Position numbers and translations under genes: made by a program. Below are positions 37,026 to 38,763 of a stretch of DNA of 44,999 nucleotides, piece after piece. Each line of letters starts with the position of its first letter. Position 1 is the first letter of the stretch. The notes under the pieces were generated by a model. It was not told the DNA's origin, did not search any database, and saw only the letters and a program-made list of their open reading frames with translations. This DNA is from Gammaproteobacteria bacterium (GTDB lineage: Bacteria; Pseudomonadota; Gammaproteobacteria; Steroidobacterales; Steroidobacteraceae): positions 1 through 44,999 of the forward strand of contig JAIBJM010000011.1 of assembly GCA_020029535.1 (NCBI GenBank). The letters run 5' to 3'.

Positions 37026-37238
37026 TCAGCGTACGCCGGCCGCCGCGTACTTCTTGCGGAACTTGTCGACGCGGCCAGCCGTATCGACCATCTTCTGCTT
37101 GCCGGTGTAGAACGGGTGACAGCTGGAGCACACATCCACGTTCAGATCGCGCCCGACGGTGGAGCGTGTCTTGAAGGTGTTACCACAACTGCAGTTGACC
37201 GTGATTTCCGTGTATTCGGGATGGATCGAGGCTTTCAT
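37026..37238 (-). CDS. rpmE: 50S ribosomal protein L31, zinc-binding form
   Basis: A 70-residue ribosomal protein. [20 protein letters not shown] and [18 protein letters not shown] are the family blocks. Cys16, Cys18, Cys37 and Cys40 form the zinc site, so this is the zinc-containing paralogue rather than the zinc-independent L31B. It stands upstream of gltA and downstream of the DnaA-box spacer, whose minus-strand promoter should drive it. Confidence 0.97.
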
Positions 37239-37331
37239 GGCGGCACCTGTTGTGGGGGTGGGCTCGAGCTAAAAAGGGCGCGCAGTCTAGCTGGCGTCAT
37301 GAAAAGCGACAAGCCCGGCCCCGCGCGCTCC

Positions 37332-37366
37332 TTATCCACAGAAGCTGTGGATAAATCTGTGGGCAA
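37332..37366. promoter_or_regulatory. Cluster of three DnaA boxes, two perfect and inverted
   Basis: TTATCCACA at 37332-37340 is the highest-affinity DnaA box sequence. TGTGGATAA at 37346-37354 is its exact reverse complement. One more base on each side also pairs, giving 10-bp arms around three bases. TGTGGGCAA at 37358-37366 matches seven of nine and lies 12 bp from box two in the same orientation. A compact inverted box pair plus a third box is reminiscent of the DARS core of E. coli. Confidence 0.75.
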
Positions 37367-37451
37367 AGCCACTCCCGCGCTGCCAAAACCGCCCGAACTC
37401 TGCATATCTGTGACTTTGGCCAAAAAATGACCAGCGAGTTACAGCATATAA

Positions 37452-37464
37452 AATCAATTAGTTA
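37452..37464 (+). promoter_or_regulatory. IHF-binding-site consensus match
   Basis: AATCAATTAGTTA fits the IHF consensus WATCAANNNNTTR at every defined position and lies in a locally AT-rich patch 86 bp from the third DnaA box. IHF sites accompany DnaA boxes in E. coli oriC, datA and DARS2. Confidence 0.55.
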
Positions 37465-37537
37465 CGGTCGCTTCATGTGAAGCACGCTGCGAAATCGGAC
37501 GTAATCCTCTAATTTGTGGTCCCGCATCATGGCGCTT

Positions 37538-37546
37538 GTGCATAAA
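37538..37546 (-). promoter_or_regulatory. Fourth DnaA box (relaxed consensus)
   Basis: TGTGCATAA is the reverse complement of TTATGCACA, which satisfies the relaxed DnaA-box consensus TTWTNCACA. It lies 30 bp past the hemW stop codon, at the far side of the same spacer. Confidence 0.5.
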
Positions 37547-37575
37547 ACGTCCGACAGAGCCGTGAATGGTCTAAG

Positions 37576-38763
37576 TCACAGAGCCTTCGAGGATTTTCTG
37601 TCTTGCCTGGACTGATTGTCGGGTAAGAAGGCGCTGACAAGATCATTGAGAAATGCCCCCCCCAGCTCAGTTGCCGACCAGCATTGAGCGCCCAGCCGCA
37701 GTAAACCGCGCTGCTGCAGCTCAGCGATCCGCGGTTGTACGGTCTGCCAGTCCAGACCGGTGCGCCCCTCGAACTGCCGGACCTCAAAGCCGTCCGTCAG
37801 GCGCAATGCGTTCATCATGAATTCGAACGGCAGCTCGCCCGGTTCGACGACCCGCTTCGTCGCCGCACGCGCGGCCGCTGCCAGATAGCGACGCGGCTCG
37901 CGCTCGCGTGCAGTCCGTTCGATCCGCCCGGATCCGACATCGCTGTTCTTGCCGTGCGCGCCAGCGCCAATGCCCAGATAGTCGCCAAAACTCCAGTAGT
38001 TCAGATTGTGCCGGCTGCGACGGCCGGGACGCGCATAGGCAGATACCTCGTAGCGTGCAAAGCCGGCCGACTCGAGCCGCCGCTGACATTGCGCATGCAT
38101 GTCGGCAGCGGCATCGTCGTCGGGCAAACCGGCCGGCGGCAGGGCGCCAAACACCGTTCCCGGTTCCAGCGTCAGCTGATACAGCGAGATATGCGCTGGC
38201 TGCAGCGACAGCGCCGTCTCGACATCGGCCAGCGCCGCGTCGTTGTTCTGCTCAGGCAATCCCACCATCAGATCAAGATTGAAATTGACCAGGCCTGCCG
38301 CATGCAGCTCTTCCACGGCCCGATACGTGTCATCGGCTTGATGGATACGTCCCAGCTTCTGCAGCTGTGGTGCCGCAAAACTCTGTGCACCCAGCGAGAC
38401 CCGATTGATCCCGGCTGCGCGGTAGTCCGCAAAACGTCCACACTCGATGGTTCCGGGGTTGGCCTCCAGCGTGATCTCGGCATCGTCGGCCAGCGGTGTC
38501 CTGGAACGGATGCCGGCCAGCAGTTCGCCAATGGCCCGCGGCGGAAACAGGCTGGGCGTGCCGCCGCCCATGAAAACGCTGACGATGCGTCGATCCTGGA
38601 CGGCGGCGAGCTGCGTATCCAGATCACGCAGCAGCGCCTGCAGATAGTCAGCCACCGGCAGTTCGCCGCGCAGTGTGTGGGAATTGAAATCGCAGTACGG
38701 GCACTTGCTTACGCACCAGGGGAAGTGCACGTACAGCGACAGCGGCGGCGCGCTCAGAGCCAT
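37576..38763 (-). CDS. hemW: Radical SAM heme chaperone HemW
   Basis: A 395-residue radical SAM protein homologous to coproporphyrinogen III oxidase HemN but acting as a heme chaperone. The 4Fe-4S motif CxxxCxxC is Cys17, Cys21, Cys24 in FPWCVSKCPYCDFN. SVFMGGGTPSLF, EANPGTIE and GINRVSLGAQSF are the radical SAM/HemW blocks. The HemN C-terminal domain follows (EFMMNALRLTDGFEV). The start overlaps rdgB by 10 bp. It is the last gene of the PP2C-rph-rdgB-hemW operon. Confidence 0.95.
   Translation of the reverse strand: MALSAPPLSLYVHFPWCVSKCPYCDFNSHTLRGELPVADYLQALLRDLDTQLAAVQDRRIVSVFMGGGTPSLFPPRAIGELLAGIRSRTPLADDAEITLEANPGTIECGRFADYRAAGINRVSLGAQSFAAPQLQKLGRIHQADDTYRAVEELHAAGLVNFNLDLMVGLPEQNNDAALADVETALSLQPAHISLYQLTLEPGTVFGALPPAGLPDDDAAADMHAQCQRRLESAGFARYEVSAYARPGRRSRHNLNYWSFGDYLGIGAGAHGKNSDVGSGRIERTAREREPRRYLAAAARAATKRVVEPGELPFEFMMNALRLTDGFEVRQFEGRTGLDWQTVQPRIAELQQRGLLRLGAQCWSATELGGAFLNDLVSAFLPDNQSRQDRKSSKAL

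Follow-up and report, generated by a model that had tools for sequence, protein, structure and literature searches.

A candidate DARS-type element for DnaA recharging in the rpmE-hemW spacer of a Steroidobacteraceae bacterium and its relatives

In Escherichia coli the initiator protein DnaA is recharged with ATP at DnaA-reactivating sequences (DARS), and within the literature examined it is in this organism that the process was worked out. DARS1 and DARS2 share a core of three DnaA boxes, box I being opposed to boxes II and III, with equal spacing in both sites (PMC5742627). DARS1 is reported to work without integration host factor (IHF) or Fis (PMC4585315, PMC5742627), and the Fis sites required by DARS2 are located beyond its IHF sites, the order core, IHF-binding site, Fis-binding site being our deduction from PMC4245941. 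DARS are already known, and some of the spread of the DARS2 spacing is already in print: it is conserved in beta- or gammaproteobacteria close to E. coli (PMC5742627, citing Kasho 2014), and E. coli was compared with seven relatives in PMC8682772. Here we describe an element in the spacer between rpmE and hemW of a gammaproteobacterium of the family Steroidobacteraceae. The window, i.e., the whole 44,999-nucleotide stretch that was analysed, is one entire contig (C15) of a 120-contig, 2.87-Mb assembly (G000). An earlier note on it had proposed a datA- or DARS-like site in this spacer. The comparison presented below makes it likely that the element is a DARS-type site, at which ADP-bound DnaA would assemble and shed its ADP, leaving free DnaA to take up ATP.

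The three-box core and its counterparts in E. coli

The element contains the following features, with column identities taken from 30 aligned loci (see below):

37332-37340, + strand: DnaA box I of the DARS core, TTATCCACA, perfect; 98.1% mean column identity
37346-37354, - strand: DnaA box II, TTATCCACA, perfect, opposed to box I after a 5-bp gap; 98.5% mean column identity
37358-37366, - strand: DnaA box III, TGTGGGCAA, degenerate (7/9), oriented as box II after a 3-bp gap; 76.3% column identity
37418-37432, no strand assigned: candidate Fis site, GGCCAAAAAATGACC, fitting GnnYAnnnnnTRnnC, +86 from box I; a consensus match only
37452-37464, + strand: candidate IHF site, AATCAATTAGTTA, perfect consensus, +120 from box I; a consensus match only
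37537-37545, - strand: distal DnaA box, TTATGCACA, +205 from box I; 95.6% column identity, counted in 26 of the 30 loci

The core has a 9-5-9-3-9 geometry, with one forward and two reverse boxes separated by gaps of 5 and 3 bp, which is the box spacing of DARS1 and DARS2; box I is opposed to boxes II and III, the last of which matches at seven of its nine positions. The earlier note had recognised the perfect inverted pair, the 7/9 box and the perfect IHF consensus, all of which are borne out; its fourth box, fitting TTWTNCACA, is present on the - strand, but at 37537-37545 instead of 37538. The exact DARS spacing of the core and the Fis-type site were absent from that note.

Two perfect TTATCCACA boxes in the window compare with 0.07 expected, and none of 100 shuffles reached two. 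The looser pattern TTWTNCACA is found three times against 1.14 expected, a count reached in 10 of 100 shuffles, so that the distal box taken alone is unremarkable. Throughout the 2.87-Mb assembly TTATCCACA occurs five times, the same count as the reversed control pattern, and the spaced inverted pair occurs a single time in this genome. The unusual feature is the spaced inverted pair, not the number of single boxes. A chance cluster, to which the chance-level frequency of single boxes in the genome would lend itself, has a practically negligible probability, given two perfect boxes in DARS spacing that are kept in relatives and, class-wide, at a fixed distance from an IHF site.

The MG1655 regions of DARS1, DARS2, datA and oriC were scanned for the core, allowing four mismatches per box and eight in total. 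The DARS1 core was located as TTATCCACT-5-TGTGGATAA-3-TGTGTATTA (1, 0 and 2 mismatches) and the DARS2 core as TTATTCACC-5-TGTGGATAG-3-TGTGAAGAA (2, 1 and 2 mismatches), with one additional weak match within the DARS2 region; the scanned regions of datA and oriC yielded no core. The element resembles DARS2, which lies near mutH, in its three-box core with gaps of 5 and 3 bp, in the probable involvement of Fis and in having extra DnaA boxes beyond, its boxes I and II being perfect where those of DARS2 carry two and one mismatches. The 250 bp that start at the DARS2 core contain four IHF-like matches (two mismatches or fewer), the best of which, with one mismatch at +109, is taken as part of the published DARS2 IHF sites. 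The window likewise has an IHF site at a set distance, as judged by consensus only, at +120; the E. coli match is 11 bp, about one helical turn, nearer the core. The arrangement differs in other respects. The Fis-type site stands between core and IHF site in the window and beyond the IHF site in DARS2; beyond the IHF site, the window has one looser Fis match, at +206, which may represent an additional site. The distal box at about +205 is oriented opposite to the DARS2 box at +211. Moreover, the neighbours are rpmE and hemW, not mutH, and the mid-arm position of DARS2, 0.96 Mb from oriC (MG1655 coordinates), contrasts with a position near dnaA in seven relatives. Because the Fis order and the locus differ, the element was filed as a DARS-type variant and not as DARS2.

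The window and 53 elements picked for having the core and an IHF site, with E. coli excluded, served to build a sequence-only profile, R1; the IHF part of R1 was thus selected, the window's own score arises partly by construction, and E-values are rough owing to a shortened calibration. Over 73.5 kb, R1 gave 67.1 bits for the window (a training member), 37.6 bits for DARS1 (E 1.6e-10) and 22.9 bits for DARS2 (E 5.9e-6), both over positions 1-134, and partial matches only in datA (17.5 bits) and oriC (13.9 bits). In whole-genome searches the element ranked first in the window's genome (E 3.9e-18), as did its counterpart in the related genome G023 (E 7.9e-16), and matches with E of 0.01 or less were obtained in 28 of 28 genomes, hand-picked for core matches or for belonging to the window's order. 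In another genome, G562, a DARS1-like core is identical to that of E. coli over 30 letters, and R1 ranks that copy first (E 6.1e-9). DARS1 itself, between bioD and uvrB, has the same core geometry as the element and aligns to R1 beyond the core (L040:2108-2242). Its stretch at the IHF position, two mismatches off consensus by eye where the window is perfect, is perhaps a decayed IHF site.

Conservation and spread of the element

Of 60 genomes, 55 gave a match to the HemW family, and the best 30 of these 55 loci (the window and 29 relatives) were used. rpmE lies on the other side of the spacer in all 30. The boxes are the best conserved parts, with mean column identities of 98% for boxes I and II and 96% for the distal box, box III reaching 76%; the gaps between the core boxes show 68% and 87%, the Fis-type and IHF sites 82% each, and the linkers 43-63%. 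In 21 loci neither box I nor box II deviates from the consensus. The IHF site is in place with at most one mismatch in 25 loci, and 28 have the strict Fis consensus near +86. The distal box was counted in 26; in one further locus (L033) it stands right at the limit of the range used for counting. The alignment of the spacer across relatives, which the earlier note had named as its refuting test, thus showed the boxes to be conserved.

The core pattern was also searched for in public genomes, which gave at least 117 stretches, 80 of them listed; this is a collection of matches and not a census. By title, most of the 80 belong to Gamma- or Betaproteobacteria or groups thereof, seven are labelled Proteobacteria only, one Alphaproteobacteria (L099) and one Candidatus Planktophila (L053). 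Enough flank was available for 109 segments from these 117 stretches. An IHF site is present at +118 to +122 in 50 of these, against 0.10 per offset elsewhere, and a distal box at +186 to +213 in 43, both occurring together in 26. A Fis-type G...C frame at +86, which emerged without having been selected for, is found in 73 segments, where the background averages 7.0 and reaches 17 at most. The strict Fis consensus occurs at exactly +86 in 26 segments, compared with an average of 0.07 per offset and a maximum of 4 in the background; G87 and C101 of the frame reach at least 90% in set A1. A fis-like gene is present in the window's genome, in a dusB-fis-purH order recognised by eye.

In a sample of 276 genomes of the class, a core with up to three mismatches was found in 236, and the reversed control in one. 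In a phylum sample the core was found in 176 of 299 genomes, again with the reversed control in one; the 176 comprise 108 of the 114 genomes belonging to the class and 68 of the 185 others. One family outside the class, f195, accounts for 36 of the 68: of its 39 genomes, all but three carry the core, often in several copies. In two genomes several DARS-like matches, mostly weak, are packed within about 1-2 kb (G556:C1:249535-250580 and G475:C1:1427733-1429402), and these arrays may be titration or reactivation clusters.

Matches to both rpmE and hemW accompany the core in 11 of the 80 listed loci, including Woeseiaceae and one Steroidobacteraceae record. The locus titled Candidatus Planktophila lacus, which we take to be an actinobacterial name, resembles the window's relatives in its rpmE-element-hemW region and is probably from a mislabelled or contaminated bin. 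Neighbouring genes were inspected at 20 of the at least 117 loci, and seven proteins were scanned against NCBIfam. By NCBIfam match, the nearest gene found is priA in Stenotrophomonas and Cycloclasticus, xseA in Propionivibrio, guaA in Methylomonas (739 bp off) and an FKBP-type isomerase gene in Pseudomonas putida, and one neighbouring protein (L047L) had no NCBIfam match; by eye, priA was also named in Lysobacter, and xseA in Sulfuritalea, a Rhodocyclaceae and a Nitrosomonas record. The elements beside priA, xseA, guaA and the FKBP gene occur in either orientation to the gene.

The flanking genes given in the earlier note were confirmed in the window, both outside the element, and one further conserved block was seen in the spacer:

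37026-37238, - strand: rpmE (L31), flanking gene; NF000612, 122.3 bits
37576-38763, - strand: hemW, flanking gene; TIGR00539, 354 bits
37500-37516, no strand assigned: family-specific conserved block, CGTAATCCTCTAATTTG; 71% column identity against 43-47% in the adjoining linkers

The block lies between the IHF site and the distal box, reads GTAAT...CTAATTT and was seen at no fixed place class-wide; it could be made up of low-affinity DnaA or Fis sites.

The position of the element upstream of rpmE in all 30 loci could also point to a DnaA-regulated promoter or operator of that gene, as the earlier note had suggested, or to a boundary element between hemW and rpmE. A promoter-like pair, TTGTCG-17-TAGACT (37312-37284, - strand), does face rpmE, and an AGTCTAG stretch before this gene is kept in most of the relatives' loci shown. 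However, box I stands anywhere between 93 and 240 bp from the rpmE start whereas the inner spacing of the element is nearly fixed, and similar elements adjoin unrelated genes in either orientation, so that rpmE regulation was rejected as the main role and the promoter or boundary explanation is distinctly improbable. A scan of 37200-37640 found no terminator-like site, which also speaks against this explanation, and a reading of the spacer as a terminator was rejected on the same ground.

Position relative to dnaA and alternative roles

In the window's genome, dnaA is on a different contig from the element. Among 18 genomes, dnaA was found in 16, and in seven of these (G017, G007, G050, G023, G042, G034 and G004) it shares a contig with the element, 32-95 kb apart. 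In G033 they are on separate contigs, whose lengths, provided that these contigs are correct, put at least about 210 kb between them. Requiring a shared contig biases toward short distances; G023, however, is a single 4.65-Mb contig. Other groups vary, with distances of about 0.9-1.0 Mb in G127 and of 54 and 142 kb in G131.

G023 also contains a second R1 match (C1:2139879-2140012, L254; 36.7 bits), 211 kb across dnaA on the opposite side, and is in this respect like E. coli with its two DARS. A second match in the window's genome (C71:59488-59609, L255) is weak (17.7 bits, E 0.01) and lacks box I. Both lie directly upstream of priA, as named by eye.

The presence of DnaA boxes, an IHF site and an AT-rich patch would also suit a chromosomal origin or a second origin, the less likely guess of the earlier note. 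Of the checks proposed there, dnaA was located as described above, and the GC skew, which was noisy, placed the origin only broadly: in 20-kb samples of G023 a change of sign from minus to plus falls between 2.07 and 2.30 Mb, a broad region containing both dnaA and the element, and at finer scale its sign wanders between 2.18 and 2.58 Mb, so that the origin is not placeable within 100 kb. The dnaA-dnaN spacer (dnaN named by eye) is the better oriC candidate in the family. Of the 16 genomes that gave a dnaA match, all but G004 were inspected at this spacer; in G004 dnaA is matched in two pieces (C25:30495-30906), perhaps through an assembly error. A perfect TTATNCACA is present in 12 of the 15 spacers and degenerate boxes in the other three, including that of the window's genome, and the 50-bp AT maximum is 60-88%. 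With DnaA boxes and AT-rich stretches both present in the spacer after dnaA, it is unlikely that the element is oriC, and this identity was rejected; AT content itself gives no clear separation, the element's own maximum of 58-80% overlapping that of the spacer. E. coli oriC resembles the element in its DnaA boxes and IHF site and differs in that no DARS core was found in its region. An origin is therefore very improbable.

A DnaA sink or inactivation site of the datA type, where boxes and IHF would titrate DnaA or stimulate ATP hydrolysis, deserves somewhat more weight but is still unlikely. datA is likewise intergenic and combines DnaA boxes with an IHF site; a location 32-95 kb from dnaA would suit titration, and titration by boxes near oriC has been argued for E. 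coli (PMC12371093). Against this, no DARS core turned up in the datA region scanned, and three or four boxes would be a small number for titration, which would also leave the fixed spacing of the Fis and IHF sites unexplained. Identity with datA was rejected on its partial R1 match. Of the two kinds of site proposed in the earlier note, DARS is thus upheld by the core geometry, the fixed IHF and Fis distances and the conservation, and datA is not (17.5 bits, partial).

Proposed working and meaning of the element

By analogy with work on E. coli (PMC4245941, PMC8682772, PMC5742627), a DARS-type site in the spacer would operate as follows. Three DnaA molecules would occupy the core, one per box, with those on boxes I and II arranged head to head. 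DNA bending by IHF at +120, and probably also by Fis at +86, would activate the exchange of ADP for ATP or set its timing, and the recharged DnaA would be able to initiate at oriC. The distal box may load more DnaA and perhaps serve as a feedback input, although this is a guess.

Several observations weigh against a DARS-type site. Box III matches at only seven of nine positions; class-wide, the IHF site is present in only 50 of the 109 segments, and together with the distal box in only 26; the DARS2-like copy of G562 is weak in R1 (19.9 bits, E 0.003, third of six); and the Fis candidate protein of the window's genome is just under its cut-off (98.3 against 99 bits). The conserved Fis consensus does not occupy the place beyond the IHF site that it has in DARS2, and we know of no proof of function for a Fis site between core and IHF site. 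Finally, the element lies near dnaA in seven relatives, although in E. coli a DARS2 moved beside oriC moderately disturbs the timing of initiation (PMC5742627).

It is conceivable, if somewhat short of probable, that an ancestral DARS plan, consisting of the core, a Fis site at +86, an IHF site at +120 and a box near +204, exists across Beta- and Gammaproteobacteria and has moved as a unit between loci (rpmE, priA, xseA, guaA and others). The E. coli sites would then be derived forms, the IHF site having decayed in DARS1 and the Fis site having been rearranged in DARS2, and in the window's order the element would work near the origin and so be replicated early, unlike in E. coli.

In the open-access literature searched, no report was found of the rpmE-hemW element, of the Fis frame at +86 or of a native DARS-type site so near dnaA. 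The finding raises a problem: DARS2 works less well when placed beside oriC (PMC5742627), yet a DARS-type element lies natively near dnaA in seven relatives of the window. A DARS core that can be recognised in most of the genomes sampled from the class provides a searchable sequence signature and shows which parts are kept by selection, namely the core, the Fis frame and the IHF distance.
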